Shown: positions 1 through 19,306 of the stretch, one piece after another
How positions within the stretch are numbered: position 1 is the first letter of the stretch
How the letters are laid out: every line of letters starts with the position of its first letter
Assembly (NCBI GenBank): GCA_030446525.1
Contig: JAUJNC010000101.1
Coordinates: 1 to 19,306, forward strand
Direction: 5' to 3'
Length of the DNA stretch: 19,306 nucleotides
Source: Armatimonadaceae bacterium
GTDB lineage: Bacteria > Armatimonadota > Armatimonadia > Armatimonadales > Armatimonadaceae
Position numbers and translations under genes: made by a program
Notes under the pieces: model-generated
Seen by the model: only the letters and a program-made list of their open reading frames with translations
The model's database searches: none
Told to the model about the DNA's origin: nothing

Positions 1-5
1 TCCCG

Positions 6-818
6 TCAGGTCGGTTGCTCAGCCGCGGCATCCCGCCTGTGTTCCGCAACCACGCTGGCAAGATCGATCCACATACTCGCGTTATGATACCGCCTCATGG
101 TCTCTTCGAATGCTCGCTGAAGATGTGGGAGGCCCGTTCCTGGGTCTTGATCCAAACGAAGCGGCGGCACGGCGCGCTCGGCAAGGATGTAAAGAAGGTA
201 TACGCTGTCACGAGCGTGATGAAGGAGATCTGCTAACGCAAAGGCGGCCCCGAATTCTGGGTGGTCTGATTTGGATACTCCACGCTCAATCGGCCAACTC
301 GGTTCAGGACCTACGTGTAGCATCCCACTGTGGGCGCGGTATTCCGCTGTGTCTACCAGGTCTGCGACTGGTACCCGAAGACGATCGGCGTGGCGACGGC
401 GCAGTTGACCCGGACCGAAAATGCGCCAGCGGTCATCGTCGGTGGCAGAAAGCCACTGGTTGATACTCGCCGGCTCGTGCAGGAATTCACGGAGCAAGTA
501 TTCGATCTCCATCACATCGCGCATCTCGTCGAACGTTGCTTGGTCAAGGCCCGAGAGAAACGCGAACAGTCCAGTCTCGAAGTCTGCACGAACCCGCCGA
601 ACCAGCACAACCACCTGCGCAAGCACGGGATGCTGCGCGAAGCGTTCGACCGCCGTATCAAGGTAGTTGAACAGCTCCTCGAAGCCCTCCACGTGGGTAT
701 CAGTCAGATCGTAGCGAAGCCGCTCGTCCCTGCGCCTTGCTACGAGCTCGAACAGCTCGTGCATAAGAGGCTGGCGGTCCGGTGAAGGGTTACTTGGCGT
801 CCGGCACTCATCTGTCAT
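6..818 (-). CDS. Cassette 6: unknown 270-aa protein, weakly DUF5677/HEPN-like
   Basis: The reading frame is open further upstream to 959, but that extension would run through attC 842-925, so the ATG at 818 (29 nt inside the cassette) is the sensible start. The product is a soluble, largely helical protein without a signal peptide or membrane segment. It has many acidic/basic helical stretches, an EIEYLLREFL helix near the middle and a YRAHSGMLHVGP element about two thirds along. The pairing of a family-specific helix with a Y-x3-S-x2-H-like element reminds me of DUF5677-type proteins, but this is from memory and weak. The stop codon is at bases 6-8, so the attC that should follow lies outside the window. 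No function can be assigned; the main information is that it is cassette-borne. Confidence 0.75.
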   Translation of the reverse strand: MTDECRTPSNPSPDRQPLMHELFELVARRRDERLRYDLTDTHVEGFEELFNYLDTAVERFAQHPVLAQVVVLVRRVRADFETGLFAFLSGLDQATFDEMRDVMEIEYLLREFLHEPASINQWLSATDDDRWRIFGPGQLRRRHADRLRVPVADLVDTAEYRAHSGMLHVGPEPSWPIERGVSKSDHPEFGAAFALADLLHHARDSVYLLYILAERAVPPLRLDQDPGTGLPHLQRAFEETMRRYHNASMWIDLASVVAEHRRDAAAEQPT

Positions 819-841
819 TCGTGTTCCATCCTGGCGAAGCG

Positions 842-925
842 GCCCAACGGTCAAGTTCACCGGCGACAAAGCCAGAGCGAGGAACGAGCGGCAGCTTTGG
901 CGTCCGGTGCAACACGTCGTTAGTC
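842..925 (-). other. attC site between cassettes 5 and 6 (84 bp)
   Basis: The ends are GCCCAAC (842-848) and GTTAGTC (919-925), the imperfectly matching RYYYAAC/GTTRRRY boxes. The inner arms TTCACCGG and CCGGTGCAA pair, and an unpaired base lies on the arm next to the cassette 5 stop codon, as in the other sites. The outer box at 919-925 departs from consensus at one position (T for R), so it may be a slightly weaker site. Confidence 0.88.
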
Positions 926-928
926 CGG

Positions 929-1531
929 CTACGGCGCATCGTCCGGCTCTTCGGGCCACGCTTTCGCATCCCGCCCCGTCCGCGTAGAAGGCGGCGGGGA
1001 CAGCGGAGCCGGAACACCGCTTGCGCTACTGCCGGGGTCGTCGTCCGAGTATCTGTCCAGCATCTGCTGGGCGGGCACGCCCCACCCGTAAGGCGGACCG
1101 GCCGGGTCCTGTGCCACGGCCAGCCGCCACTGCTCTCGTGCCTGCACGCGCTGTCCCAGAGCCAGTAGCGCATCCCCCAGGAGCTTGTGCACCATGGCGC
1201 TCTGGTACGCCCTCCCGCCACTCATCTCCCCACCGGCGGCCAGAAGGTCCAAAGCCATGCGCAGAGCACGAGCGGCTTGCCCCGCATAGCTTGGCTGCAG
1301 CGGTCGTTCCGATAGCAGGCGGGTGGCCAGAGTGATGTGCGTGTTCGCATCGGCCGGGTTGCGCTGTACCCGCCGGCGCAACCGGTCCAGGCTGTCTCTG
1401 CCGAACTGAATCCAGTGGCGGCTAAACGGGATCCGCAAGGCGAGCGCGACGGGAAAGCGTGGGGCTAACTGGATCGTGTACGATCGGACGACAGCGTATC
1501 TCCAATTCATAGCCCCTTGTGCCGGTGTCAT
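929..1531 (-). CDS. Cassette 5: TPR-like protein, 200 aa
   Basis: The start at 1531 is supported by a GGAGGG Shine-Dalgarno sequence seven bases upstream on the minus strand. The N-terminal 40 residues are mixed hydrophobic and basic without a clear signal peptide. The middle contains helix pairs with the spacing of tetratricopeptide repeats, for example NPADANTHITLATRLL (about 58-73) and KLLGDALLALGQRVQAREQW followed by AVAQDP (about 115-141). The tail (about 160-200) is rich in Pro, Ser, Asp and Glu and is probably disordered. TPRs act in protein-protein binding; the partner is unknown. The stop lies only a few bases from attC 842-925, the usual compact cassette arrangement. Full-length, no frameshift seen. 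Confidence 0.8.
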   Translation of the reverse strand: MTPAQGAMNWRYAVVRSYTIQLAPRFPVALALRIPFSRHWIQFGRDSLDRLRRRVQRNPADANTHITLATRLLSERPLQPSYAGQAARALRMALDLLAAGGEMSGGRAYQSAMVHKLLGDALLALGQRVQAREQWRLAVAQDPAGPPYGWGVPAQQMLDRYSDDDPGSSASGVPAPLSPPPSTRTGRDAKAWPEEPDDAP

Positions 1532-1591
1532 CCTTCAACCCTCCATCACGCGAGCGAGTTACCGATTATCGACGGTGCCGACCACAAGCCG

Positions 1592-1683
1592 GTCTAACGG
1601 CCCGCTTCACCGACGCGGCCCGGTAAGGGCGGGAGTGACGCGGGATGCGCCGCTGCCGCGTTCGGTGCAAGCGTTGGTTGGGC
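1592..1683 (-). other. attC site between cassettes 4 and 5 (92 bp)
   Basis: The outer boxes are GTCTAAC (1592-1598) and GTTGGGC (1677-1683). The inner arms TTCACCG-ACGCGGC and GCCGCGTTCGGTGCAA are complementary, with one extra base on the arm nearest the cassette 4 gene. The central part (about 1618-1660) is a GC-rich variable loop. A 76-bp stretch between this site and the cassette 4 stop codon shows nothing else. Confidence 0.92.
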
Positions 1684-1759
1684 CGCGTCGCGCGGTAGTA
1701 CAGGCCGGACCAAGTGACCGTGCCGCGCCACGGCACACGGCGACAACGAAGCCGCGCCG

Positions 1760-2797
1760 TCAGGCTACTTCCTTTTTCGCCTGTACCGCTGCCAGTAAAG
1801 CGTCCGAACCTACGGAGTAGCCCCACCGCGCCTCGATGCTGTTGATCGCCAACTTGGTTTTCCACAATCCCGCCAGTGTTTCGGCAGTTTCGTAGGTGGT
1901 GGTGCAGTCGCGTACGATGGTACACAGGTAGCCGTAGCCCTGGTGCTCGTCCTGCATGTTCGCCATGCCGTAGGGGCTGAACTGAACACACTCGTCCGTC
2001 TCGAAGCCCATGTAGAACAGGACGCGAATTCGCCTGTCCGTCAACAAGCGATGGAACTGCGCGGCGGCGTACACCAGCAGGTCGCCCGCCTTCGGCTCCG
2101 CAGGCTTGGGGATGGCAATCTTGGGATACACCTCTTTGCTTTGGCGTGACTGCCAGTCCGGCGTGCCCCAGACCCGTTCCCGATGCTGTTTACGCCATTC
2201 CTCCGTCCAGTCCTGGGAAGGCCACTTCTTCGCGAGCGGCTCTTTACTGCCCCCGTCACTTTGACCGGGCGCGGAATCCGACTTAGGCTCAAGTGCTTCT
2301 CGTTCTTGCTCCGTGGTGGATGCCAACCACTGCTGCGGGTACCTGCGCAAAAACTGCGGGTGATTGCAGTGAAACACCTGCACCCCCAACCTTCTGAGTT
2401 GATCAACCGTGGGAGCGATTTTCGTTTGGATGATACGCCGTTTCCGTTCTGCATGAGAGCGTCCCCGCTCCAAACTCAGTTCGAGGCCAAGCGTCTCGCC
2501 GACGGGGCCGCCTTCCCAGCCGAAGTTCCACACGTCCACCAACGCCACGCCTACCTCGCTGATGTCGAAGGTAAACGGAACGCTTTGGCGAGTGAAACTG
2601 CTTTCCGTAAACGGCTGCCCCGACTGAGGAGAGCGCGGCGTGTATTCCAAAGCGATGGTGAACATCATGGGCTTTTTCTTTGCTTGCGGGCGGAACACTT
2701 CTGTGGGAGAAGTCAAGATGGCGAAACCCGCAGCAGCCGCTTGGCAGAAGTCGCGTCGGTTCAAACCTTTGTCGTGTTGTTCATCTTGTGGCTTCAT
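1760..2797 (-). CDS. Cassette 4: Tat-exported isochorismatase-like cysteine hydrolase family protein
   Basis: The chosen ATG at 2797 gives 345 aa; a GTG nine bases upstream is possible. The N-terminus carries NRRDF (13-17) followed by a short hydrophobic stretch, a twin-arginine signal, so the protein is probably exported folded. The core resembles the isochorismatase-like fold: VALVDVWNF with the expected catalytic Asp at about 88, and MGFETDECVQFSPYG with the expected nucleophilic Cys at about 270, then YLCTIVRDCTTTYET. Between them lies a long, charged insertion (about 160-235). The usual third active-site residue, a Lys before the C-terminal half, is not obvious; the matching stretch reads DLLVYAAAQF. 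It may be a divergent amidohydrolase or a non-catalytic relative. The substrate cannot be predicted. Confidence 0.78.
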   Translation of the reverse strand: MKPQDEQHDKGLNRRDFCQAAAAGFAILTSPTEVFRPQAKKKPMMFTIALEYTPRSPQSGQPFTESSFTRQSVPFTFDISEVGVALVDVWNFGWEGGPVGETLGLELSLERGRSHAERKRRIIQTKIAPTVDQLRRLGVQVFHCNHPQFLRRYPQQWLASTTEQEREALEPKSDSAPGQSDGGSKEPLAKKWPSQDWTEEWRKQHRERVWGTPDWQSRQSKEVYPKIAIPKPAEPKAGDLLVYAAAQFHRLLTDRRIRVLFYMGFETDECVQFSPYGMANMQDEHQGYGYLCTIVRDCTTTYETAETLAGLWKTKLAINSIEARWGYSVGSDALLAAVQAKKEVA

Positions 2798-2828
2798 GTT
2801 ACGCACCAGCGCGCCCGATGACGCTGCG

Positions 2829-2922
2829 GCCCAACGGCAAAACTCAGGGGCGCGAAGATGCTGACCATCGTGCGCAGCAAACCACCGGCTGCTTTCGCGT
2901 CCCCTGCAGTGCGTGGTTGGGC
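2829..2922 (-). other. attC site between cassettes 3 and 4 (94 bp)
   Basis: The outer boxes are GCCCAAC (2829-2835) and GTTGGGC (2916-2922). The inner arms differ from the other sites in a paired way: CAGGGG on the left and CCCCTG on the right replace CACCGG and CCGGTG. This compensatory change supports folding of the site into the attC hairpin. The extra unpaired base is kept on the same arm as in its neighbours. Confidence 0.93.
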
Positions 2923-2941
2923 CGGTCGGTACACAGCGCCA

Positions 2942-3403
2942 CTATCGACGGTTACGCCGTCTGCGAGAGCCTCGTGGGCGATGAACGTACCAGCCGCCGT
3001 ACCCCATCTTCACGGGTATCCCCGCGACGTAGCGGGCGAGCCAACCAGAAATTATCCAGCAGATTATCGTTCCGAACCAGATTATCCCGCCAGATATGGT
3101 GAGACCGCTTACTTTGTCCTGCAGACCTATCGAGTTCCATAAGCCTGCCAAGATAATCAAACCCCTGAGCCAGCTTGCGGCAGTTTCAGTAGCGCTCTCT
3201 TTTGCTTCCGGCTCCCACGTACCGTCTCGGAACGATTTTGCGGCTCGGTATGTCGCAACAAGGTCGGCAGCTTCCGTTAGGATGAAAAGGGCTGCTCCGG
3301 CTATCATGAACGGGTCGCTGCCCTTTACCGCTCCGAACGCAAGCAATCCTGCCGAGAGGAGCAGGGATGCTAGTTTCATCTGCACCTCACTCTCTGTTGC
3401 CAT
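2942..3403 (-). CDS. Cassette 3: small integral membrane protein, four predicted helices
   Basis: The product is 153 aa from the ATG at 3403, or 145 aa from a second ATG at 3379 that follows GAGGTG. Four hydrophobic segments are visible: LASLLLSAGLLAFGA (about 11-25), FMIAGAALFILTEAADL (about 32-48), LRGLIILAGLWNSIGL (about 79-94) and ISGGIIWFGTIICWIISGW (about 103-121). Helices 1-2 and 3-4 form two hairpins joined by a charged loop. The C-terminus is strongly basic (SRRRRNRR), suggesting a cytoplasmic tail. I do not recognise the family. Membrane proteins are common cargo in chromosomal integron arrays; transport, toxin-antitoxin or envelope roles are all open. Spacing to both attC sites is normal for a cassette. 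Confidence 0.8.
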   Translation of the reverse strand: MATESEVQMKLASLLLSAGLLAFGAVKGSDPFMIAGAALFILTEAADLVATYRAAKSFRDGTWEPEAKESATETAASWLRGLIILAGLWNSIGLQDKVSGLTISGGIIWFGTIICWIISGWLARYVAGIPVKMGYGGWYVHRPRGSRRRRNRR

Positions 3404-3418
3404 CCGTCGTTAGCTGCG

Positions 3419-3528
3419 GCCCAACGTCCCGATTCACCGGCGCGAAGAAGCTGCTATCGAACGGCGGTAAGCCTTCTTTCGGCGACAGAACCGGCTGCTT
3501 TCGCGTCCGGTGCAAGCGGTTGTTAGGC
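3419..3528 (-). other. attC site between cassettes 2 and 3 (110 bp)
   Basis: The outer boxes are GCCCAAC (3419-3425) and GTTAGGC (3522-3528). The inner arms TTCACCGGCGCGAA and TTCGCGTCCGGTGCAA pair with one unpaired base. It is the longest of the five sites because of a larger central loop. The stop codon of the cassette 2 gene (3523-3525) lies inside the outer box, so the gene ends exactly at its attC. Confidence 0.94.
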
Positions 3529-3960
3529 AGCTTCTAAGTCTGGCTCAAAAGGCGGCGCGTTCAGCAACCTCTTGATAAGCCCCTTCAGTCCCTGGTCGGG
3601 TAGTCCCTGCGGCGAACGCACTACCTCCGGCCGCTGGTAGTAGCCATCTGGCCCTGTCTTATAGACGAACATACCTTCGTTCTGCCTACGCATATACAGC
3701 ACGAGCACGCGGGGACGATGCGGGTTATCAATTCCCCGAAGCTGTTTCATGAATTCCTGGTCGTATCTTTGCCAGTCTGACCACCTATCCGGTAAAGCCC
3801 CGTCCAGCACAACAAGGTCAGGGGGCTCTTGTGCTACTTTTTCCAACGCCTCGGGAAGGAACGTTACCAAAGTAAGCTCATAGCCCTGCGGTTCGAGCAT
3901 CTGCTGTATATGGCTTTTTAGATCGGTGTCGTCGCTTATCACCACTACTTTTGCTGACAC
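3523..3960 (-). CDS. Cassette 2: stand-alone response-regulator receiver-like protein, 145 aa
   Basis: The start appears to be GTG (3960), preceded by AAAGAGA. Receiver-domain landmarks are present: a first beta-strand VVVIS followed by the acidic pair D10-D11, and VVLDGALPD with the expected phospho-acceptor D53. The later strand reads PRVLVLYM, without a clear switch Ser/Thr, and the conserved Lys-Pro is Arg-Pro (R110-P111). A loop of about 20 residues (59-79, rich in Trp, Tyr and Arg) is inserted after the phosphorylation site. There is no output domain. It could be a single-domain CheY-like shuttle or a pseudo-receiver that works without phosphorylation. No histidine kinase is encoded nearby, so any partner is elsewhere in the genome. 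A signalling protein as integron cargo is unusual. Confidence 0.83.
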   Translation of the reverse strand: MSAKVVVISDDTDLKSHIQQMLEPQGYELTLVTFLPEALEKVAQEPPDLVVLDGALPDRWSDWQRYDQEFMKQLRGIDNPHRPRVLVLYMRRQNEGMFVYKTGPDGYYQRPEVVRSPQGLPDQGLKGLIKRLLNAPPFEPDLEAA

Positions 3961-4006
3961 TACTTGTCTCTTTCGCTACATGCCGATGGTGTTCGCCAAG
4001 CCCGCT

Positions 4007-4099
4007 GCCTAACGGCGAAGCTCACCGGCGCGAAGAAGACGACCATGAGCGGAGCAAAGAGCCGCTTGTGTTCGCGTCCGGTGCAGCACCCCGTTAGGC
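4007..4099 (-). other. attC site between cassettes 1 and 2 (93 bp)
   Basis: The outer boxes are GCCTAAC (4007-4013) and GTTAGGC (4093-4099), a perfect complementary pair. The inner arms CACCGG-CGCGAA and TTCGCGTCCGGTG pair with a single unpaired base (T at about 4077 on the plus strand). That base is on the arm next to the cassette 1 gene, the position expected of the L'' side, and so fixes the cassette orientation as minus. Confidence 0.95.
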
Positions 4100-4116
4100 G
4101 CATGTGTTTGGGTCAA

Positions 4117-4564
4117 TCAACTCTTTGCGCCAGCCTGCTTGATCGCGCTGATAATGGCTCCCTTCTCCCCCAAGCGCTCCACCCGCAATAACATCCATTG
4201 GCTCGTGTTGTCGGGCCGCATTGTCTTGCTCAGAAACACGATCCCGTCTTGGCCCCTGCGCAACCCGGTCTCGAAACCTGAGCCGTAGTCCGGATCACCC
4301 CTGCGCCACCGGTAACGGACCCAAAGAGCCTCACCCCGCTTGCTGCCTTTGAGCGGCGACATCTGACGCACCTTGTAGGACACCTGGACCTCTTCCTGCC
4401 CGTGACCGACTGGTGACACATCAACGATTGTCACCGCCCATATGTCCGTTGCAGCCCTTAGCGCCACAACAAGTTTGTTTCGTCTGGGAGTCTGTGGGTC
4501 GGGTGCAGAAACGGCCGGGGCGCGCGAGCAGCAATACGGCGACGGCCACAGCACTTTTCCTCAT
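4117..4564 (-). CDS. Cassette 1: small exported protein, one apparent frameshift
   Basis: An ATG at 4564 begins MRKSAVAVAVLLLA, a textbook signal-peptide start, but this frame soon leaves the main ORF. The main frame continues as RAPAVSAPDPQTPRRN and runs to 4117. Joining the two by one base at about 4525-4535 gives a complete signal peptide with a likely VSA cleavage site and a mature domain of about 125 residues. The mature part contains KLVVALRAATDIWAVTIVDV and a basic, Trp/Tyr-containing stretch near YRWRRGDPDYGSGF; I recognise no family. Without the join, a GTG at 4554 would give a protein with no sensible N-terminus. It is the attI-proximal cassette, hence likely the most recently inserted and best transcribed. 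No cysteines suggest a simple soluble periplasmic or secreted product. Confidence 0.68.
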
Positions 4565-4660
4565 GATTGTTGTCCGCCTGATTGCCTCCGACTGGATACC
4601 TGATCAACATCCGCTGGCCGACCAACCATCCGGATACGAAGCAGCACATGGTCAGCTTAC

Positions 4661-4805
4661 GCCTAACTTTGTATTTTACGTCGCTTTCTGACGCAAAGCA
4701 CGGCGGAAGAAGTACGGCACTTTTGCGGTATTTTACCACCCTTCCACGTGTTTTACGTCACTTCCGCGGTATCATGCACCTGCCAGCCGGGCTTTACGTC
4801 ACCGG
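4661..4805 (-). other. attI-like region: crossover box plus four imperfect direct repeats
   Basis: GCCTAAC at 4661-4667 (GTTAGGC on the minus strand) marks the junction with cassette 1. Beyond it four related elements lie on the plus strand: TATTTTACGTCGCTTTC (4672-4688), TATTTTACCACCCTTCC (4729-4745), TGTTTTACGTCACTTCC (4749-4765) and a shorter GCTTTACGTCACC (4791-4803). Four integrase-binding sites, two at the core and two direct repeats, are known for attI1; the number here is similar but the sequence is unrelated. The minus strand also shows TAAAAT boxes at 4673-4678 and 4730-4735 that could serve as -10 elements of a cassette promoter; no good -35 matches were seen. Confidence 0.72.
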
Positions 4806-4841
4806 GAAATACCTCACCGGACGAGCCCGCTGACACAGGCG

Positions 4842-4862
4842 TCTGCCGGCCCGTCCGGCAGA
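4842..4862. promoter_or_regulatory. Perfect inverted repeat upstream of intI
   Basis: TCTGCCGG (4842-4849) and CCGGCAGA (4855-4862) are perfectly complementary around a five-base centre. The repeat ends 25 bases before the intI start codon, upstream of a CGGAG ribosome-binding site (4874-4878). It could be a repressor operator or an mRNA hairpin limiting integrase synthesis; it is not a LexA box of a form I recognise. Confidence 0.55.
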
Positions 4863-4887
4863 TAAGTCACCTACGGAGTTCGACGCC

Positions 4888-5851
4888 ATGACCATCGAAT
4901 CCTTCCTCCATCAGGTACGCGAGGCGATCCGCCTGAGGCACATGAGCATCCGTACCGAAGAGGTCTACCTGCACCGCATCCGGCAGTTCATCGTCTTCCA
5001 TGGTAAGCGCCATCCCGCAACTCTGGGTGTGGAGGAGATCCGGGCCTATCTGTCCCATCTGGCCGTCGAAGGCAACGTCGCCGCCTCGACCCAGAACGTC
5101 GCGCTCGCCGCCCTGCTGTTCCTGTACCGGGATGTGCTCCGCACCGATCTGCCCTATATCGACGGCGTCGAGCGCGCTAAACGCCCCTCACGGGTGCCCA
5201 CCGTCTTCACTCGCGGGGAGGTGAAGGCCCTCCTGGCTCATCTGGACGGGACGCATCACCTGATGGCAAGTCTGCTGTACGGGTCTGGCCTTAGGCTCAT
5301 GGAATGCGTACGCCTTCGCGTCAAGGACATCGACTTCGACATGGGGCAGATCACCGTGCGCGACGGCAAGGGGCAAAAGGACCGGATCACTATGCTGCCC
5401 AAACGCTGGGGGAACCGCTGCAGCGCCAGGCTCGTCAAAGGGCGTGCGCTCCACGAGAAGGATCTGGCCGATGGCTGTGGCGAAGTCTACCTGCCATTCG
5501 CGCTGGAGCGAAAATACCCGCACGCAAGCAAGGGATGGGCCTGGCAGTATGTGTTCCCTGCCGACCGGCTGTCGTTGGATCCCCGGTCGGGCCTTCAGCG
5601 CCGCCACCATATCGGCGAGGAGTCGCTCCAGCGGGCGGTGAAGGCGGCGATCCGAACAGCGGGCATCGCGAAACACGGGAGAGCGCCACACGCTGCGCCA
5701 CAGTTTCGCGACGCACCTGCTGGAAGACGGCTACGACATCCGCACCGTGCAGGAGTTGCTGGGCCACAAGGACGTGCAGACGACGATGATCTACACCCAC
5801 GTGCTGAACAAGCCAGGCCTGGCGGTCAAAAGCCCCCTGGACCTCACGTAG
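4888..5851 (+). CDS. intI: Integron integrase (tyrosine recombinase), one frameshift near 5677-5686
   Basis: IntI recombines cassette attC sites with attI. The start at 4888 is nine bases after CGGAG. The N-terminal SAM-like DNA-binding domain spans about 1-90. The catalytic domain shows R136 in [12 protein letters not shown] and the beta-hairpin lysines in DGKGQKDR (159-166). The integron-specific extra region, which separates IntI from XerC/XerD, is present as [20 protein letters not shown] (205-224). After K262-H263 the frame shifts: ten bases replace the expected nine, and the next frame gives [16 protein letters not shown], then [14 protein letters not shown] with the nucleophilic Tyr and the end at 5851. 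All five catalytic positions are therefore encoded, in two frames. The product would be about 320 aa, normal for IntI. The shift may be a read error or may have silenced the integrase. Confidence 0.95.
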
Positions 5852-6034
5852 ACGCCCGGGGACGTTCAGAGCGTGGGTTCCGTCTGGGCCACAAGATCTT
5901 TCTGGCGCCACACCGCATCCCGGTCCATAACGGCCAGCCGCTGACGGGTGGCCGTCTGGGCGCAGGATCTGCCGGCGGGCGAAATCCTCCTCCGGGATGC
6001 GAGGCGAGCTAAGATTCCAAACGGGCCAGCGGCG

Positions 6035-6805
6035 TCAAGCGACGTGCCGCCTGGGCGGGGGCACGTTCTCGATCAGGTAGCGCGCGGCCTCCTGGTGCGT
6101 GCACTGGCGGGCCTGCGCCGTGCGCAGCAGACCCTCCTTGGTCCGGGCGCCCGGACAGACCGTCAGGCGCCAGTCCACGTACACGCTGCAGCGGCGGAAG
6201 GTGGCCGGGTCGCGGTTGCGCGCCCGGGTCACCTGGGAGCGCACGTCCGGCAGCGGCCGCTGCACCAGGGGCGAAGGCGTGTACGGCCGGGCGGGCGGGC
6301 GGATGATGACGGTGCGCACGCTGCCGTCGGGCTCGTGGACGCGCCGGGCGCTGTCCATGATCAGGGGCTGGGCCGCGCGGCGGAAGACCTGCCGCACGGC
6401 GTCGCGGGGTGCCAGGCCGGTGGCCTGGCAGTAGCGGTCCAGGGCGCGCGCGGCCAGGACGCCCAGGCACAGGGCCACGCGGTATGGGAACGGCCCGCCC
6501 TCGGGCCTGGGCCAGCGCATCCCTTCGGTGTTGTAGCGCCCGCAGTCACGGCACCAATACACCTGATTGCAGTTCCTTCTCCCCTTTCCCCTTCGCTGGC
6601 ACCTGCCGCCGCAATGGGGGCAGGGCGGACAAGGGGGGCGGGGCTCGGTGCCGGGACGCGGCTCGCGGAATTGACGCCCACAGGCCGGGCAGCGGTACTT
6701 TTGCCGGCCGTCTCGGGTGCAACCGGCGCGACGCACGTGCGTCGCGCCGCAGCGCGGGCAGGGGGGGACGTCGGGTCGGGCGCCGGCTTGCGCGGTGCTG
6801 CTCAT
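6035..6805 (-). CDS. Protein with two N-terminal zinc ribbons, IS1 InsA-like at the start, 256 aa
   Basis: The start at 6805 is chosen because GGAGG lies five bases upstream; a longer reading from 6832 lacks this. The first zinc ribbon is CPRCGATHVRRAGC followed by YRCPACGRQF (about 16-45), the same layout as the InsA zinc ribbon of IS1-type elements. A second ribbon, CPHCGGRCQRRGKG followed by YWCRDCGRYN, spans about 62-94. A helical section (about 105-150) might hold a helix-turn-helix. The C-terminal third has VDWRLTVCPGARTKEGLLR but no DDE motif that I can place. There are no terminal inverted repeats near it. It may be a domesticated DNA-binding protein or a transposase relic. It sits just downstream of and convergent with intI, 183 bp away, with nothing seen between them. 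Confidence 0.7.
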   Translation of the reverse strand: MSSTAQAGARPDVPPCPRCGATHVRRAGCTRDGRQKYRCPACGRQFREPRPGTEPRPPCPPCPHCGGRCQRRGKGRRNCNQVYWCRDCGRYNTEGMRWPRPEGGPFPYRVALCLGVLAARALDRYCQATGLAPRDAVRQVFRRAAQPLIMDSARRVHEPDGSVRTVIIRPPARPYTPSPLVQRPLPDVRSQVTRARNRDPATFRRCSVYVDWRLTVCPGARTKEGLLRTAQARQCTHQEAARYLIENVPPPRRHVA

Positions 6806-6922
6806 GGTGACCTCCGTGAGGTAATCAAACATTCGTTTTATGTTATGCCACCTTTTCGCCGGAACAAGGACAAGAAGCCCCAGGATGTAGAGGCGCTCGC
6901 CTTATAGTAGGAGCTTGTGCCG

Positions 6923-6952
6923 TTGTATCTGTCGTGCGGCGCCGTGTATACT
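6923..6952 (+). promoter_or_regulatory. Candidate sigma-70 promoter for the hydrolase gene
   Basis: TTGTAT (6923-6928) and TATACT (6947-6952) are separated by 18 bases. This would start a transcript about 30 nt before the gene at 6990. The -10 box is a good match; the -35 matches at three positions. Confidence 0.5.
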
Positions 6953-6989
6953 ATCCCAGGAAGCTTTGCCCTCAAGGAGCGAGGTTCGT

Positions 6990-8328
6990 ATGCTGGGCTT
7001 ACAAAAGATCCTCCGTTTTTCGGTCGCCTGCCTGCTGGTGGGTCTCGCCTGTCGCGCCGCGGCGGCGCAAAGCGGCGTCACGCCGCCGCCGCAGCCTGAG
7101 GCCGGACCCGGCGGCAGCGACTACGCGTTCCCCGGCTATGTTTTCGAGCAGGTCGGCAGCGGCCCCGGCTCGTACTGGCTGTTCGAGCCCAGGCCCAGGC
7201 CGGCCCAGGCGCCCGTGATCGTCGTGCTGCACGGCTACAGCGCCGAAGGCAGGCCCAACCTTTACCGGGGGTACCTGGGCTGGGTCGCGCACCTGGTCCG
7301 GAAGGGCAGCGTGGTCATCTTCCCGCTGATCCAGGACGCCGCCACGCCCCAGCGCGATTTCTACCCCAACGCCCTGCGGGCCATCAAGGACGCCCTGGGC
7401 GTGCTGCAAACGCAGCCGGGGCGGGTCCGGCCGCAGACGGGCGGCGACGGGCGGATGAACTTCGCCATCACCGGCCACTCGCTCGGGGCGGGCCTGACCT
7501 ACGTGCTGGCGTCGCTGTACCCGGCCAACGGCATCCCCAAGCCCAAGGCGCTGATGCCCGTGATGGGCGGCACCAACTACCGGCCCGGCGTCGCCTTCGA
7601 CACCCGGAATATCCCGCCCGACACGTACCTGCTCACCGTGAGCGGCAACGACGACACGGGGATAGGCAATCGGGGGCACGTGGTGATGATGGACCTGATC
7701 CGCAAGAACACGCCCCAGATCCCCTCAGACCGCAAGGACTGGGTCCTGTTCTACAGCGACGATCATGGCACGCCCCCCCTGGTGGCGGACCACTCCCTGC
7801 CGTCGACCGCCGTGACCGACGCCCTGGACTACTACGGCGTCTGGAAGCTTTCACAGGCGCTGTTCCACTACGCTTTCTACGGGACCGACCGCGACTATTG
7901 CCTGGGCGGCGGGCCCGACATGACGTACCTGGGCGCCTGGAGCGACGGGCGCCCGGTGGTCCCGCTGTACGTCTCCGACGCCAACATGGACTGGACGGAC
8001 CGGGTGAGCGTCACCCGCAGCGGGCAGAGCCCAGACGGCGAGACCGGACGCTTCGTGCAGAAAGTGACCCTGCGGAACACGGGCGACCGTGCGGTCCCGG
8101 GCCCCGTGTCCCTGGTCCTGGACGGCCTGCCCGCCGGCGTGAGCCTGTACGCCAAAGGCGGCGTTTCCGGCGTCACCACGAGAGACGCCCCCGGAACAGC
8201 CCGTACCTGGATGTCAGCCCCGGGCTGGACGCGGGGCAAAAGTGGTAATCACGCTGGAGTTCATCAACCCGGCGAACGCCGCCATCCGCTACACGACGCG
8301 GGTGCTGGCGGGACCTGGGGGCCGATGA
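6990..8328 (+). CDS. Exported alpha/beta hydrolase with C-terminal beta domain, two frameshifts
   Basis: The start ATG at 6990 follows AAGGAG and GAGG. A signal peptide is visible (hydrophobic SVACLLVGLACRAAAA, about 11-26). The catalytic domain has the oxyanion-type HGYSA (81-85), the nucleophile elbow GHSLG with Ser164, a candidate acid in SGNDD (about 221) and a candidate His at 259 or 268. It is probably a secreted esterase, lipase or peptidase; the substrate is unknown. From about residue 330 a beta-rich tail resembles CARDB/NPCBM-like add-ons (VQKVTLRNTGDRAVPGPVSL). Two single missing bases, one in a C/G run at 8187-8194 and one in an A run at 8238-8241, break the frame; restoring both extends the tail as NSPYLDVSPGLDAGQK then VVITLEFINPANAAIRYTTR to TGA at 8326-8328, 446 aa in all. 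Confidence 0.83.
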
Positions 8329-8378
8329 GCGCCGATGAGCCATGCGGGAACCCCTGGCGCAAACAAGCGGAGTGCAGG

Positions 8379-8936: not shown

Positions 8937-8979
8937 GCCGGACAATCAACAGCAAGTCACGGACAGTCTTCCTGTTCGG

Positions 8980-9399: not shown

Positions 9400-9607
9400 A
9401 GTAGAGGTTCTCCCTTCCCTTGTCGCTCCGATATCGACGGATGGCCGGATACACCGCTGCCACGGGCGCGGAAGCGGTGGCGGGCAGATCCGTTGCGCTT
9501 GGGCAACAGGGATAATGCAGCGCTCGTCACGATGAGTACGAGAGCGCTCCACGAGGGGTGCAGGCAGGTCCGTCACACGGGCGCGACGCGGAGTCCTGCA
9601 TCACAGC

Positions 9608-9818: not shown

Positions 9819-9833
9819 GAGACCGTGCTTCTT

Positions 9834-10274: not shown

Positions 10275-10300
10275 CAGCGCCTGCACCGCTCATTGATGCA

Positions 10301-11815: not shown

Positions 11816-11828
11816 CAGACGATTCCCT

Positions 11829-12604: not shown

Positions 12605-13750
12605 TTAGTCGATGTACTCGCGCAGGCGGCGGCAGCGGTTCGGGCTGCGCAGCTTTTTGAGCGCCTTGGCCTCGATCTGCCGGATGCGCTCGCGGGTGAC
12701 GCTGAACTGCTGGCCGACCTCTTCCAGGGTGCGCGGGCTGCCGTCGTGGTCCAGGCCGAAGCGCATCTTGAGCACGTCGCGCTCGCGGTCGGTCAGGGAG
12801 CTGAGCACCTCCTCGATCCGGTCGCGCAACACGGACTTGGACGCGGCCTCGGAGGGCGTGCAGTTCTCGTCGTCCTGCACGAAATCGCACAGGTGGGAGT
12901 CTTCCTCCTCGCCGACCGGGGTTTCCAGGGACAGCGGCTCCGGCGCGATGCGGATGATCTCGGAGACGCGCTCCACCGACGTGCCCATCTCGCGCGCCAG
13001 CTCGTCGAGGGTCGGCTCGCGGCCCAGCTCCTGCAGCAGGTGGCCGGACGTCTTGACCAGCCGGTTGATGGTCTCGACCATGTGCACGGGGATACGGATG
13101 GTGCGCGCCTGATCGGCGATGGCGCGGGTGATGGCCTGGCGGATCCACCAGGTGGCGTAGGTGGAGAACTTATACCCTTTGCGGTAGTCGAACTTCTCGA
13201 CGGCGCGGATCAGGCCGAGGTTGCCCTCCTGGATCAGGTCGGGGAAGGACATGCCGCGCCCCGAGTAGCGCTTGGCGATCGAGACCACCAGGCGCAGGTT
13301 GGCCTGCGTCAACACGGCCTTGGCCTCGTGGTCGCCGCGCTCGATCCGCTTGGCGAGCCGGATCTCCTGGTCCAGGGTGAGCAGGTGGGTCTTGCCGATC
13401 TCGCGCAGCCACATCCGCACCGAGTCGTCGAGCGGCTGGCCGTCCGTGCCCGAAAAGTCGTCGCGCAGGTCGGCGGCGGGGGAAAGGGTGTCGGCCGGGA
13501 CGGGGCGCGCGCCGCCCGCCTCGAGGGAGACGGCGAAGTCCTTGGGCGTCGGGGTGTGCCGCTCGACCACCTGGATCCCTTCGTCCGCGAGGAGCTGCAG
13601 CAGGTCCTCGTAGTGCCCGGCGTACGCGTCCTCCTGCCGACAAAGGGTGTCGTTTATCTCCTCGTACGTGAGGACGCCGTGCCGCCGCCCGGCGTCCAAG
13701 AGCCGCTGAATGTCGCCGTTCTCCCCCACCGCCTGTTGAACCGCCACCAT
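12605..13750 (-). CDS. rpoD: Primary sigma factor (sigma-70, RpoD/SigA), 381 aa
   Basis: This is the housekeeping promoter-recognition subunit of RNA polymerase. Region 1.1-like helices occupy about 10-62. A low-complexity linker leads to region 1.2 ([13 protein letters not shown], 108-120). Region 2 is complete (about 143-213), with the -10-reading helix [19 protein letters not shown] (193-211). Region 3 is about 222-300. Region 4 (about 312-366) carries the -35 helix-turn-helix [19 protein letters not shown] (342-360). The protein is short for a primary sigma because it lacks the long non-conserved region between 1.2 and 2, as in Firmicutes and several environmental phyla. It starts 62 bp after dnaG and overlaps no neighbour. 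The frame is intact, in contrast to dnaG. Confidence 0.98.
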
Positions 13751-13812
13751 TGCCTTCTCCCCCGCCCAGCCCGGCGCACGCCGCTGTGAACGGTAGCCCC
13801 CGGCGGCTATTC

Positions 13813-15771
13813 TCAGGTTTCCTGATCTTCCGCCGTCCTGGGGGTCTTCAGTGCCCGCATCTGGCTGTACCAGCGACGTAGTTTTTCATCATCGTCTGCG
13901 CCGTTTCCTTCTGCCCCGCGTATTTCCGCGGCGGTTTGGCGCAAGTTTTCGCGGCGGCGCCGCTCCCCCAGGGCATGGAGGCAGCCCTGGATGATGGCCT
14001 CGGAAAGCGGCTCCTCTTCCGCCGCCAGCAAAACCCCGTTGGCGTAATCGGCCAGGGAGGCGTCGGCCAGCAGCGCGACCGCCTCCCGGGGGGGGTACTT
14101 GCCGTCCACGAGGGGCAGGATCTCCTCGACCAAGCGGGCCGCGTTCGCGTCGGGGAAATCGGAGGGCTGCAGGCGGCCGCGCACCAGGTCGGCCCACTCG
14201 TCGGAAAGCAGGGCGCGCAGCAGGGTCTGCTCGGCCACGGCGGCGGCGCCGCGCTGCGGCGGCGCGGGCGACGGCTCCGCGAACGCGGGCGCGGCGGGCC
14301 AGCGCCCCCCGCCGGGTGCGCGCGCCCGTAGCCGGGCGGGCCGGGGCGCCTTGCCCCCCGGCCCAGCGCACGGCCTCGCCCTGCAGGCGCACCGGCGGGG
14401 CCGGAAGGGGCGGCTCGGGCATCTCTTCCCGGGCGGCGGGCGGCGCCTTGCTGGTGGGAGTGGCCCTCCCCCGGCGCGCGCAGCGACTCCTCGACCCGCG
14501 CGCCGCCGGAGGCAAGGCCGGGTGGTAGGGCGCCAGGCGCCGCAGGAGCATGTCGCGCTCGATCGGGGAGCGCACGGAGGAGAGTATGGGCACGCCTCGC
14601 GCAGAAAGGCGAGCTTCCCCTCGTCCGCCGACGTGTCGTAACGAGTCTCCAAAGCGCGCAGGCGGAATTCCGGCACGGAAAGGGGCGCTGTCGATCTCGC
14701 CTTGCGGAAAGCCGCGGCGCTGCCGCGCGCCAGAAGGGAGTCGGGGTCCTCGCCGGGGGGCAGGGCGAGGACGCGCAGCGTGAAGCCCCCACCGCCTCGA
14801 AGAGGGCGGCGGCGCGCAGGGCGGCCCGGGACGGCCTCGTCGGCGTCGAAGGACAGGACGACGTTTTGGCGTAGCGCCCGAGCAGGCGGACGTGCTCCTC
14901 GGTCAGCGAGGTGCCCAGCGTCGCCACGACGTGGGGGAAGCCGGCCTGGTGGGCGGCCACGGCGTCCATGTACCTTCCACCACGACCGCGCGCCCCTCCT
15001 CCTGGATCGCCTTGCGCGCGCGGTTGAGCGCGTACAGGATGCGGCTCTTGGAGAAGACGGGGGATTCGGGCGAGTTCGGATGCCCGGCGCGTTCTCCGCG
15101 GGAAGCAGGAGGCGGCCCCCGAAGCCGGCCACGCGCTCCTGAACGTCGAAGATGGGGAAGATCAGGCGGCCCCGGAACTTGTCCGTGTGGCCGTCGCCGC
15201 GCCGGGACGGGAAGACCAGGCCCGCCTTCTCGGCGTCGGCCATCACGTGCGGGTGGCCGGCCTCGTGGCGGGCGAGGAACTCGGCCAGCGCCTCCCAGTC
15301 GTCCGGGGCGAAGCCGATGCGGGCCTCCATCGTCTCGTGGGCCAGCCCGCGCTTCTCGGCGTAGTCACGCGCCAGCCGGGCGCGGGCGAAGCTTTCGCGG
15401 AAGAAGCGCAGCGCCAGGGCGTTCACGGCGTACAGGCGGTCGCGCTCGTCGCGCGCCTGCTGCGCCGCCCCGGCGTCGGCGCCCCGCGCGCTCAGCGTCA
15501 CCCCGGCCTTTTCGGCCAGGCGCTCGGCGGCTTCGGGGAAGGACAGCCCTCGGCCCGCATCAAAAAGGAGAAGACGTCGCCCCCCGTGGAGCAGGCCCCG
15601 AAACAGTGCCACAGGCCCCGCTCGGCGTCCACGGTGAACGAGGGCGTCTTCTCCTGATGGAAGGGGCAGATCCCTTTGTGCCTGCGCCCCGCTTTTTCAG
15701 GGTCGTGTAGCCCGACACCGAACCGGCGATGTCGGTGCGCGCCCGTATCTCTTCCTTTCGCTGGGTTCCAT
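13813..15771 (-). CDS. dnaG: DNA primase, broken by about ten single-base frameshifts
   Basis: DnaG makes RNA primers at the replication fork. Pieces in different frames assemble into a normal primase: [21 protein letters not shown] start, the CHC2 zinc finger ([14 protein letters not shown], then [13 protein letters not shown]), the RNA-polymerase core ([33 protein letters not shown]), the TOPRIM motifs ([22 protein letters not shown]) and a C-terminal DnaB-binding domain ending at 13813. Shifts are near 15745-15752, 15693-15697, 15547-15549, 15083-15085, 14971-14975, 14864-14867, 14817-14835, 14786-14790, 14588-14595 and again in the linker (14300-14530). Nearly all are one missing base, mostly in runs of A, C or G. 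dnaG is essential, so consensus error is likelier than decay unless a second copy exists. Confidence 0.9.
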
Positions 15772-15782
15772 GCAGCCATCAA

Positions 15783-16639
15783 CTACTCTACCGAGGCGAT
15801 GGTCATGGCGATGACGCGGCCGTTCAGGAACTGGAACGAGGCGTGCGCCCGGTTGCGGTACGAGGCGACCAGGATCGGGCCGAAGCCTGCTGGAACTGCT
15901 CCGGGTAGCCGTACTTCTGCTGGACCTGGGCGTACGTCGAACCCAGCCCGATGCCCCGCGTGGTGCGGACGGTGGCGCCTTTCCCGCCGTAGCCGATCAC
16001 CTTGATCTGGATCACGCGGCCGTCGGCGCCGATCAGGAACTCGTAGGAGATTCGGCCCGGCCGGTCGTAGATCCAGGTGACCTCCTGGCTGCGCGCCAGA
16101 CTGGACGTCGTGTTGCCGAACGGCCCGGCGGCGCCGCCGACGCCGCCCCCGGGGTAGCCCTCCTCGGCCGATCCGGAAGGCGAGCCGGGAAACCGCCCGG
16201 GGCGCCGGGGAAGCCGCCGGGCGCGCCGGGAAACCGCCGGGGGCGCCGGGAAGCCGGGCACCGCGCCGGCGTCGCTGGGGCCCCGCTGCCGCCAGGGGCG
16301 GCAGGCCGCCTGGCGCGGCCGGGAACGGCGAAAGCCGCCCGCGTCGCGGCGGTCCCGGCGCCCCTCGGTCCCGCGCGCCGCCGAAGCCGGGCTGGCCGGC
16401 GGCTCCGGGGACCACGCCGGTCGCCCTGCCGCCCTGGGGCGCGGTAGCCGACCTCCCGACGACGATCTCTGCGTCGGGTTCCCGTGATGGCCCAGAACGC
16501 TCCTCGAGTTCGTGTTCAGGCGGATGCCCGCCAGCGTGCGCTCCGATACCTGCGCTGGGCCCGATGGGCTCGCCAGCGCGGCTCGCAACCGCAAGCGCGC
16601 CGCGCCGCACGCGCGCGCTGTGTTACGCCGGATCATCAA
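15783..16639 (-). CDS. Gly/Pro-repeat protein with a duplicated short domain, frameshifted
   Basis: The ATG at 16639 has a strong AGGAGG nine bases upstream. No known family is recognised. An N-terminal copy of a short motif (AGIRLNTNSRSVLGHHGNPT, then EIVVGR after a frameshift) reappears near the C-terminus as GIGLGSTYAQVQQKYGYPEQ, followed after a second frameshift by GFGPILVASYRNRAHASFQF and the end at 15783. A low-complexity, Gly/Pro/Ala-rich region with GAPGGFPG-type repeats lies between, then GNTTSSLARSQEVTWIYDRP and beta-strand-like ISYEFLIGADGRVIQIKVIG. The C-terminal part looks like an exported or envelope beta domain. Its stop codon is 11 bp before the dnaG start, so it heads the dnaG-rpoD run. 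Frameshifts at about 15891-15895 and 16470-16475, and more in the repeat, look like missing bases. Confidence 0.65.
16186..16257 (-). repeat. Tandem 20-21-bp repeat coding Gly/Pro-rich units
   Basis: About three and a half units of a sequence like GGGAAACCGCCGGGGGCGCC follow one another, some 20 and some 21 bp long. In frame they read GFPGAP-type units on the minus strand. The unequal unit lengths break the frame and are a likely place for read or replication slippage. Confidence 0.75.
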
Positions 16640-16752
16640 ATTCTTCCTCCTGGAATCGCCGTCGCACCCGACGGCAACTTTTCTTTTTCGCCCCCGGCGC
16701 GAAAATTCCTCCCGCGGGCGCGGCTTTCTTTCGTGATTATGTCCTTTGTTCT

Positions 16753-16770
16753 GTACACTGTAGAGTGTAC
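16753..16770. promoter_or_regulatory. 18-bp palindrome, candidate operator upstream of glnD
   Basis: GTACACT, GTAG, AGTGTAC: a perfect 7-bp inverted repeat with a 4-bp centre, in the 182-bp region between the divergent genes at 16639 and 16822. A TACACT box that overlaps the left arm (16754-16759) would be a -10 element for glnD with a weak TCGTGA -35 at 16731. A regulator bound here would block it. The half sites share GTA/TAC ends with NtcA-type nitrogen sites but the spacing differs. Confidence 0.6.
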
Positions 16771-16821
16771 CCTCGGTTCCCCGAAAGGATTCCGGCCCGG
16801 GGCCGGTGAAAAAAAAGCCGT

Positions 16822-19306
16822 ATGCAACACTGGAAGCAACAACTGGCGACGCTCTCCGACGATCACGAACTCGCCCGGTTCCTGGTGACCGAGCGCGAGG
16901 GCCTGATGGCCGCCTGGACCCCGGAGGAGGGGGGGCGCGCCTGGATGCGGCGCCACGCCGATTTGATCGATACCGTTGTGCGCCGCTTGTTCGCCCTGGC
17001 GGCGGGGCGCGCCGAGGGCGAGTCGCCCCCGGACGACCCGGAGGCGCACCAGATCGCCATCGTGGCCACGGGCGGCTACGGGCGGCGCGAGCTGTCGCCC
17101 CACTCCGACGTCGACATCACGTTCCTGCCGTCGCGCGACGACGACGCGTACCTGAACCGCGTGATCAAGGAGATGTTCCGCCTGGTGATGGACGTCTTCC
17201 TTTCCGGCGCGCGCATGAAGGTCGGCTACTCGTACCGCCTGCTTTCCGACTACGAGGGGCTGGACCACCAGACGCAGACGGCCCTGATCGACGCCCGCTG
17301 CGTCGCGGGCAACGCGGGGCTCTTCGCCCAGTTCGACCGCGATTTCACCCAGCGCCTTCAGGCCACCGATTTTTTGTTCCGCAAATACGCCGAGCGCAAC
17401 GCGACGCTCGACAAGAACGGCGTCTCGCCCTACGGCGTAGAGCCCAACATCAAGGAAGGCGCGGGCGGGCTGCGCGACATCCAGGCGGCCGAATGGGTGG
17501 CGGAGGTGCGCTTCGGCAAGGGCGGCGACGCGCTGTGGCGCGATCTGGTTAAGCGCAAGGTGATCACCGGCGACGAGGCGCGCGTGGTCGCCGAGGCGCG
17601 CGAGTTCCTGTTCACCGTCCGGAACCTGGTGCATCTGATCACGGGCGACACCCGCGACACGCTGACGGCGGAGCGCCAGGAGGCGGTCGCCGCGCGCCTC
17701 CAGTACCCCGACAGCGAGGCGGCGCCCGGCGTCGAGCAGTTCATGCGCGACTACTACCGCCGGGCCGGCCAGGTGCACCACATCGCCAACAAGATCCTGG
17801 TGCGCTGCCTGAACTCGCCCCTGCCGCTGGGGGCGGGGCTGTCGTCCGTGCGGCGCTCGATCACCGTCTCCGACGCCGCGGAGGCCGAGGCCGACCCGCT
17901 GTGGCCGCTGCGCGCCCTGGTCGCCTGCCAGACGTACGACCTGGATCTGGCGCTCGGGACCGAGGAGGCGATGCAGCGCCATTCCGAGCGGCTGGCGGCC
18001 CCGCGGGGGGCGGGCGCGGACCCGCGCGCGGCGGGGGGCTTGTTCCTGGACCTGCTCCGGCGCCCGCGCAACGTCTACTGGGCCGTGCGCCAGATGCACA
18101 ACACCGGCCTGCTCGGCTGGCTGCTTCCCGAGCTCGCCGCCTGCATGGACCTGATCCCCTACGACCCGGCGCACGAGTACACGGTGGGGGAGCACACGCT
18201 GTTCGTGCTGCGCAACCTGGAGCGCCTGCGCGGCGCGACCGAGCCGCCCCTGGTGGAGTACCGGCGGCTGCTGGAGGAGGTGGGCGCGCCCGAGACGCTG
18301 TACCTGGCCGCCCTGCTCCACGACGTCGGCAAGCAGTGGTCCGGCAAGCACGCCGAGACAGGGGCGGAGTGCGCCGTCCGGATCTGCGAGCGGCTGGGCT
18401 GCCCGCCGGAGATGACCGAACGGGTCGCGTTCCTGGTCCGCCACCACCTGCTGATGGCCGAGACGTCCCGCCTGCGGGACCTGGCCCTGGACGAGACGAT
18501 CCGCGAGTTCACCCGCACCGTGGGCGATCTCGACCTGCTGCGCATGCTGTACCTGCTCACCTATGCCGACACGTCGGCGGTGGGGACGGGGGTATGGACC
18601 GAGGTCAAGGCGCGCTTCCTGGGCGACCTGTTCACGCGCGCCGAGGCCGCCCTGTCGGGGCCGCAGGAGGAGACGCCGCGCGCGCCCAACCTCCATGCGT
18701 TCCGCGAGCGGGTGCGGCGGCAGCTGGCGCGGGAGAAGAACCTGCCCATCGAGGTGATCCACGAGCACACCTCTGCCATGCCCGCCTCGTACCTGCTGAA
18801 CACGTCCCTCGAGGACATGTACCTGCACATCGCCCTGATCGCCCGCGTCCGCGCCAGCTTCCGGCCCACCGTGGACTCGCGCACCGAGTTCGGCTCCGAC
18901 TACACGGAGCTGACAGTCGTGACCTACGACGACCCCAAGCCGGGGCTCCTGTCCAAGATCGCCGGGGTGCTGTACGCGCACGACGTCAACGTGCATTCGG
19001 CGCAGGTGTTCACGCGCACGTCCTCGGACCGCATCGCCATCGACACGCTCTGGGTCGACTTCCGCGAAAAGCCGCTCTCGCCGGCGCGGCGCGCCGACCT
19101 GGAGGGGGCGTTCCGGCAGGTGCTCACGGGCGAGACGACGGTCGCCAAGCTGCTGGAGCGCCGGGGCAAGCCCGCCCAGATCGTGCAGCCCGTGCGCTCG
19201 CTGCGGCTGGACGACCAGACGTCGGACAACTACGCGATCCTGGACGTGCAGACGCCCGACGTCAAGGGGGCGGTCTACCGGCTCGCCTCGGCCCTCTCGT
19301 CGGTCG
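16822..19306 (+). CDS. glnD: PII uridylyltransferase/uridylyl-removing enzyme GlnD, cut by the right edge
   Basis: GlnD senses glutamine and adds or removes UMP on the PII protein, controlling nitrogen assimilation. The reading frame is open from the ATG at 16822 to the window end (828 codons). The nucleotidyltransferase domain shows GGYGRRELSPHSDVD (84-98) with the metal-binding pair D96/D98. The HD phosphohydrolase domain has LLHDVGK (498-504) and a later RHHLL, the uridylyl-removing site. The first ACT domain starts at about 697 (TVVTYDDPKPGLLSKIAGVL), and the second begins near 804 (YAILDVQTPDVKGAVYRLAS), so only the end of ACT2 is missing. Frame and domain order are intact. The gene is divergent from the repeat-protein/dnaG/rpoD run, and no PII gene is in view. 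Confidence 0.97.
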   Translation, partial: MQHWKQQLATLSDDHELARFLVTEREGLMAAWTPEEGGRAWMRRHADLIDTVVRRLFALAAGRAEGESPPDDPEAHQIAIVATGGYGRRELSPHSDVDITFLPSRDDDAYLNRVIKEMFRLVMDVFLSGARMKVGYSYRLLSDYEGLDHQTQTALIDARCVAGNAGLFAQFDRDFTQRLQATDFLFRKYAERNATLDKNGVSPYGVEPNIKEGAGGLRDIQAAEWVAEVRFGKGGDALWRDLVKRKVITGDEARVVAEAREFLFTVRNLVHLITGDTRDTLTAERQEAVAARLQYPDSEAAPGVEQFMRDYYRRAGQVHHIANKILVRCLNSPLPLGAGLSSVRRSITVSDAAEAEADPLWPLRALVACQTYDLDLALGTEEAMQRHSERLAAPRGAGADPRAAGGLFLDLLRRPRNVYWAVRQMHNTGLLGWLLPELAACMDLIPYDPAHEYTVGEHTLFVLRNLERLRGATEPPLVEYRRLLEEVGAPETLYLAALLHDVGKQWSGKHAETGAECAVRICERLGCPPEMTERVAFLVRHHLLMAETSRLRDLALDETIREFTRTVGDLDLLRMLYLLTYADTSAVGTGVWTEVKARFLGDLFTRAEAALSGPQEETPRAPNLHAFRERVRRQLAREKNLPIEVIHEHTSAMPASYLLNTSLEDMYLHIALIARVRASFRPTVDSRTEFGSDYTELTVVTYDDPKPGLLSKIAGVLYAHDVNVHSAQVFTRTSSDRIAIDTLWVDFREKPLSPARRADLEGAFRQVLTGETTVAKLLERRGKPAQIVQPVRSLRLDDQTSDNYAILDVQTPDVKGAVYRLASALSSV

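Follow-up and report, generated by a model that had tools for sequence, protein, structure and literature searches.

Known systems and the locus

Integrons let bacteria gather genes in the form of cassettes. In sedentary chromosomal integrons, such as those of Vibrio, Xanthomonas and Pseudomonas, the integrase gene (intI) points away from an array of single-gene cassettes that all run one way, the attC sites have paired R boxes, bulged bases and inner arms, and the neighbouring genes are chromosomal. All these features recur in the DNA stretch of 19,306 nt analysed here and referred to below as the window (contig JAUJNC010000101.1 of assembly GCA_030446525.1, Armatimonadaceae bacterium, forward strand, positions 1–19,306). 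The window differs from the known sedentary integrons in its host phylum, in attC sites that are 47–72% alike and in an IntI set that is largely of its own phylum. There is very little doubt that the left 5.9 kb of the contig is a chromosomal integron of a bacterium from the little-studied phylum Armatimonadota; we regard the window as an ordinary integron in an unusual host. While the window itself is of a known kind, the presence of scattered cassettes at copies of an attI-like core in its relatives is new and was unexpected. No work on integrons in Armatimonadota was found by title or abstract in the open-licence literature, most subscription papers lying outside this search.

attC sites

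The window has five attC sites of 84–110 nt (Table 1), as claimed in a preliminary description made from the sequence alone; all lie on the minus strand, upstream of intI and in antisense orientation to it. A scan for the two box types combined with paired inner arms found exactly five sites, whereas 60 shuffled copies had 0.017 on average and 1 at most. A stricter scan recovered three of the five only, because the outer boxes of attC4 and attC5 are poorly paired in place (7, 6, 7, 5 and 5 of 7 positions in attC1 to attC5).

The sites share a helix of 7 outer pairs, a spacer of 5/6 nt, 3 pairs, a bulge, 6 pairs, another bulge and 6 pairs. In the alignment, which holds five sequences only, 95.5% of the cells pair, and both sides have changed in 8 of the 22 pairs, a number reached by 0 of 500 shuffles; the attC sites therefore have the conserved folded structure of an integron. 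The inner arm CACCGG-A-CGCGAA is exact in attC1 and attC2, as described, but varied in attC3, attC4 and attC5, where most changes are compensating. The array was also called homogeneous, which overstates the likeness of sites whose whole-length pairwise identity spans the range given above.

A covariance model built from the five window sites (R1) gave 47 matches at E<=0.01 in 92 loci, the window excluded. All 38 matches in named loci (79 of L001–L080, without L028) were antisense to and upstream of intI, and R1 thus does find attC sites. A second model (R2) was trained on those 47 sites, without the sites of the window. In the window, R2 scored the five sites at 54–64 bits, the next match being attC1 on the opposite strand at 14.4 bits. 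The scores that the preliminary description had expected to be high were so for all five sites, in these models of our own rather than in IntegronFinder's model.

attI region and cassette register

When a cassette is free as a circle, the R'' box of its attC site is paired with the R' box with which that cassette begins. Compared in this circle register, the R'' boxes of cassettes 1–5 fit their own R' boxes at 7, 7, 7, 7 and 6 of 7 positions (34 of 35 in total), versus 30 of 35 for R boxes paired in place. We take this fit as the probable footprint of cassettes that entered as circles, with the attI crossover at G4667. An attI with its crossover between G and TT is thereby placed next to intI, from the sequence and the cassette register only; TTTTACGTCAC-like direct repeats are seen in the attI region at 4670–4802.

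The register delimits five complete cassettes of 654, 588, 590, 1237 and 750 nt, and the contig ends inside cassette 6, which runs past the left end of the window. Six minus-strand open reading frames (ORFs) do lie between or beside the attC sites; of the six single-gene cassettes proposed earlier, however, only five are complete, the sixth being cut off.

We propose that IntI would recombine the folded bottom strand of a cassette attC with attI, cutting between G4667 and TT. Promoterless cassettes would be added singly beside intI and read leftward. The choice of strand, transcription from a promoter near attI and activity of the system would be as family knowledge leads one to expect.

Table 1. 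Coordinates of integron features and chromosomal marker genes in the window
Feature	Coordinates	Strand	Remarks
attI region	4661..4887	-	crossover G at 4667, then TTAGGC; sequence ...GCGACGTAAAATACAAAG followed by TTAGGC
intI, integron integrase gene	4888..5851	+	pieces 4888–5691 and 5687–5851 owing to frameshifts
attC1	4007..4099	-	60.8 bits
attC2	3419..3528	-	59.9 bits
attC3	2829..2922	-	64.4 bits
attC4	1592..1683	-	54.3 bits
attC5	842..925	-	54.6 bits
cassette 1 ORF	4117..4554	-	145 aa, no family; signal-peptide-like start in other frame at 4564
cassette 2 ORF	3523..3960	-	145 aa, N-terminal part receiver-like (response regulator)
cassette 3 ORF	2942..3403	-	153 aa, hydrophobic-looking by eye, no family
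cassette 4 ORF	1760..2806	-	348 aa, isochorismatase-like hydrolase, possible Tat signal by eye
cassette 5 ORF	929..1531	-	200 aa, weak TPR-like signal below cut-offs
cassette 6 ORF	6..818	-	270 aa; own attC would fall beyond contig end
rpoD - dnaG (frameshifted) - orf15824 - glnD	12605..19305		chromosomal markers for host placement

Integrase gene

Judged by its sequence, the intI product is an integron integrase and not a Xer recombinase. The NCBI integron integrase model TIGR02249 scored 344 bits over the first 268 residues of IntI (cut-off 265), while the XerC and XerD models reached 68 and 57.5 bits, far below their cut-offs of 335 and 330; neither of the two was the best family. The V. 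cholerae integron integrase structure 2a3v aligned with IntI over 2a3v residues 4–262 (E 6e-67), and this alignment, along with the TIGR02249 score, assigns IntI to the integron subfamily with its extra domain. A grouping with XerC/XerD had been named beforehand as the outcome that would speak against an integron; in a wide tree, IntI stood apart from the three Xer-like rows.

IntI thus belongs to the same family as 2a3v and the class 1–3 integrases. It differs from them in its company: the starred 24-row set of the wide tree that holds the window IntI includes rows from Cyanobacteria, Chloroflexota and Acidobacteriota, in trees made without the class 1–3 IntI and the 2a3v protein. TIGR02249 was over its cut-off in 10 of 291 genomes of the phylum of Abditibacteriaceae (which we take to be Armatimonadota in GTDB), with 11 matches. 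A careful 41-row tree placed IntI of the window in a 12-row set (support 96/97) with nine of these 11 proteins, and a tree constrained to keep the 11, the window IntI, P0001 (see below) and P0011 together was not clearly rejected (p 0.065). With the window, Armatimonadota joins the list of integron hosts; the IntI lineage concerned belongs for the most part to this phylum. Relatives of IntI are also encoded in 145 of 186 pattern-matched stretches of viral contigs (IMG/VR), of which 80 loci were kept (L081–L160).

P0001, an intact protein of 320 residues encoded on a 1274-nt contig, is 97% identical to the window IntI. Relative to P0001, the window gene differs at about residues 172–181 and permanently loses its frame at about 5678–5690; the C-terminal 54 residues can be read at 5687–5851 in another frame. 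Several genes of the window are frameshifted or seemingly so, at 13813–15782 (dnaG), 4888–5851 and 4564–4117. The first requires several frame changes versus a single 781-residue frame in the related genome G038. Together, these frameshifted genes suggest indel errors in the contig. The intI frameshifts most likely are such errors as well: the essential gene dnaG shows the same kind of damage on this contig, and P0001 is an intact, near-identical counterpart from elsewhere.

Several observations weigh against our reading of the locus. The intI gene is not a single open frame, and its integrase may be inactive; TIGR02249 gave no match at E<=1e-30 in G029 and G038, the genomes nearest to the window; a search of 1–6900 for sigma-70-like promoters returned none; and the test with R2 is not fully independent, its 47 training sites having been found with the window-derived R1. 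The frame loss relative to P0001 and the fact that G029 and G038 retain cassettes and show no intI would suit a decayed integron, in which intI is a true pseudogene and the array a fossil movable only by a foreign or related IntI. Such decay fits less well with the identity of IntI and P0001 outside the shifted stretches and with the frameshifts of essential dnaG on the same contig, and we consider it unlikely.

Host and chromosomal location

The host was suspected to lie outside the classical gammaproteobacteria, which agrees with our results. The best match of the window GlnD among 16 genomes was in G008, an Abditibacteriaceae record; among the 291 genomes, identity was 82% to G029 and 77% to G038. 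Comparison of RpoD did not discriminate host placement. The genes rpoD, dnaG and glnD are on the same contig as the integron, and the gene order orf12082-rpoD-dnaG-orf15824-glnD is syntenic in G038; the integron-side genes have no match in the syntenic G038 locus. Judging by the adjoining rpoD-dnaG-glnD block, the integron may be sedentary.

The same block has to be set against the idea of a mobile integron, carried on a transposon or plasmid that adjoins these chromosomal genes. Beside intI, at 6035–6832, there is a gene for a zinc-ribbon protein of 265 aa whose N-terminal domain is of the IS1/IS1595 type, and the left end of an element would lie beyond the contig. Still, neither a transposase core domain nor a plasmid gene was found among the window proteins scanned, the chromosomal block is syntenic in G038, and the IntI lineage is largely that of the phylum; a mobile integron is thus very improbable. 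Rfam at gathering scores gave no match in the window, and ARAGORN detected no tRNA or tmRNA there.

Scattered cassettes and remote attI-like sites in relatives

A typical integron has one initial attI close to its integrase, attI sites outside class 1 are poorly described, and clusters of attC sites lacking integron integrases (CALINs) have been proposed to be degraded integrons (PMC9024848, available part of the text). Sites called attG are described as diverging from classical att sites (Loot et al. 2024 as cited in the accessible passages of PMC12444791, PMC12690207 and PMC12901181). Sites similar to attI are frequent across genomes, and the integrase can use them away from attI (IntI1 off-target activity, accessible passages of PMC10127599).

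Cassettes of the window's relatives resemble CALINs, single attC sites lacking integron integrases (SALINs) and attG insertions in lying away from intI; unlike in attG insertion, several of their left flanks are copies of an attI-like unit. As in off-target recombination by IntI1, there are attI-like sites away from attI. In contrast to the 3-base GNT or 7-base GTTRRRY of IntI1 (PMC10127599), the cores in the relatives have 18–20 nt, and two genomes of other lineages (G003 and G314) carry copies of their own attI of 56–168 nt. Literature searches on attI-like or multiple attI sites and SALINs returned, in the portions of text that they covered, no account of a genome that carries its own attI in remote copies.

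R2 detected attC sites in 37 of the 291 genomes at E<=0.001 (15 candidates scored per genome). At E<=0.01, with 150 candidates scored per genome, there were 52 sites in G008, 20 in G022, 17 in G038 and seven in G029, distributed over many contigs; 92 of the listed sites, forming 58 clusters, were analysed (two G008 sites on C16 were left out). In G043, twelve attC matches occupy one strand of a 10.6-kb contig (C132, locus L307), and the intI found in this genome is on C52 (15 candidates scored).

Of 24 sites from G038 and G022, 23 were compared with their surroundings, the one omitted lying at a contig start; an exact copy of the own R' box was located 120–1600 nt upstream in 13 cases and downstream in two. 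The permuted mean for the upstream position was 2.4, and 0 of 1000 permutations reached 13. G029 lacks one 1152-nt cassette that G038 carries between flanks orthologous in the two genomes; the flanking genes align, the short intergenic stretch does not, and the same region has a second gap of ~1 kb without a recognised attC.

Upstream of intI, the motif GCGGTATAA is common to the window, G043, G042, G008, G022 and L001, with a score of 25 versus a maximum of 17 in 30 shuffled sets; these six regions were picked after a first look, and the remaining loci are mostly without the motif. In the window alone the motif is not enriched (p 0.12). The sequence CGGYATAAT matched at 8–9 of 9 positions at 11 of the 30 leading cassettes with an exact own R' box (the better one being taken where two R' boxes fitted), against a background of 0.26% of 13306 GTT positions, those sites included. 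No exact R' box was found for the other 28 of the 58 leading cassettes.

Whole-genome searches with cores of 18 and 20 nt produced 16 and 14 matches, respectively, versus 0 and 1 for the reversed patterns. With the two cores combined and up to two mismatches allowed, there were 24 copies in G022, G008 and G038, two of them being the attI beside intI. A same-strand attC follows 16 of the 22 remote copies within 3.3 kb (15 within 3 kb), while we estimate from site density that ~1% of random positions have an attC within reach. The cores were chosen with nine of the 22 already known, all nine having an attC; of the 13 found blind, seven have one. Two of the six copies without attC are accompanied by weak attC matches of 17.7 and 14.5 bits. 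An intI fragment is present at one of the 22 copies; at the other 21, up to 1.5 kb of upstream sequence gave no trace of intI at E<=0.01.

G029, the genome closest to the window, has two 60-nt attI-like copies (C535:3072 and C611:3761) and no intI was found in it; one copy is followed by two attC sites, the other is 20 nt from a contig end. Their similarity to the window attI is weak (13 and 12 of 18 positions; 3 of 612 GTT positions in the G029 loci reach 13).

As a phylum-wide marker, the short motif GCGGYATAAT-N5-6-GTT proved unspecific, with occurrences in 59 of the 291 genomes and 13 among the 37 with attC. A hairpin nature of the remote sites was only partly borne out, perfect inverted repeats of at least 6 being present at 14 of 27 sites versus 7% in controls.

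CGGYATAAT resembles a −10 box, and 46 of the 59 genomes with GCGGYATAAT-N5-6-GTT are without an attC match of R2 at E<=0.001. It could be that the remote sites are ordinary promoters and that cassettes landing just downstream of a −10 box are kept because they are expressed. We find this doubtful given the excess of core matches over reversed patterns, the attC sites that follow 16 of the 22 remote copies and the 56–168 nt spanned by the repeats in G003 and G314.

Remote attI copies in other phyla

Scattering of cassettes peculiar to the phylum was considered and rejected: attC matches were found in at least 16 of 17 intI genomes of other lineages, in several of them on many contigs. Flanks were compared for three of the 17 genomes, chosen for their many sites; this covered 59 sites in 22 clusters, of which 14 have their exact own R' box.

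In G003 (Acidobacteria record), two remote clusters start at copies of the intI-side attI, 93–94% identical over 89 and 98 nt. The two copies end at these same distances from the crossover, and the loci compared hold no match to intI; the copy on C114 is only 388 nt from the contig end. A second unit, of 67 nt, is common to two further G003 clusters. Three remote clusters of G314 (Propionivibrio soli) start at copies of the genome's own attI, of 59 nt on C3, of 56 nt on C31 (ending 4 nt before the crossover) and of all 168 nt compared on C19, where a 38-residue intI remnant is kept. G314 cluster C33 has its own intI nearby, and C7 has no attI copy. With the exception of C19, homology of the G003 and G314 copies ends short of intI. 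The copied unit spans 56–98 nt, or 168 nt in one case, and reaches the crossover or comes to within 4 nt of it.

None of the examined clusters of G311 (Nitrococcus) starts at a copy of the intI-side attI. Two clusters on C1, at ~408821 and 2849360, share a left flank of 217 nt with 94% identity, which is not the intI-side attI.

Remote sites as possible entry sites or possible remains of integrons

We tentatively suggest that, in some genomes of at least three phyla including that of the window, one integrase captures cassettes in trans at remote attI-like copies, a reading that we hold to be a serious candidate though short of probable. In the window's phylum, the core would place a promoter-like box 5–6 nt before the cassette, and many cassettes could thereby be expressed as the first in line. 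In such genomes, solitary cassettes and CALINs would represent satellite docking sites and not debris. The attI-like unit may itself be mobile, e.g. as a circle of attI plus cassette. A single intI is documented for G008 and G022 only; G314 has a second.

The remote sites may also be leftovers of whole integrons whose intI has decayed, instead of docking sites in use, and to this we give a comparable, tentative weight. Fragments of intI are kept at G008 C8:52395 and G314 C19, the G008 locus L282 also holds IntI fragments, and the likeness among the G008 copies on C8, C17, C40 and C56 extends ~100 nt past the core. Decay thus fits at least two remote sites; it fits most others less easily, given the 21 of 22 remote copies in G008, G022 and G038 without an intI trace and the two G003 copies that end 89 and 98 nt from the crossover without an intI match (the one on C114 being near a contig end).

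Capture at remote sites would mean that an entry site for cassettes can exist in many copies around one chromosome, beyond the side of the integrase, as our results suggest. If remote attI copies do serve one integrase, the usual view, with a single entry site for each integron, is incomplete, and where integrase-less clusters come from can be tested by comparing the attI of a genome with the left flanks of its scattered cassettes.

Cassette genes

No resistance family was found among the six cassette ORFs in scans with NCBIfam, Pfam, PADLOC and PHROGs (cassette 6 was scanned as 6–959 in the first two), which bears out what had been said of the array. PADLOC gave weak matches of cassette 2 only, and PHROGs only families of unknown function or weak matches. 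The cargo had also been called unexplored, which is not entirely right in view of cassettes 4 and 6.

The out-of-frame start at 4564 hints at an indel in cassette 1. The receiver-like part of cassette 2 scored 29.9 bits with Pfam PF00072, just under the cut-off of 30.2. Cassette 4 scored 24.8 bits with PF00857, under the cut-off of 27; it is a member of an isochorismatase-like family of 77 proteins at E<=1e-3 (76 besides its own), many of which have the isochorismatase-like domain. For cassette 6, ten proteins were collected, its own included; the best other one, 66% identical and named from a Planctomycetia record, hints at possible exchange between phyla.

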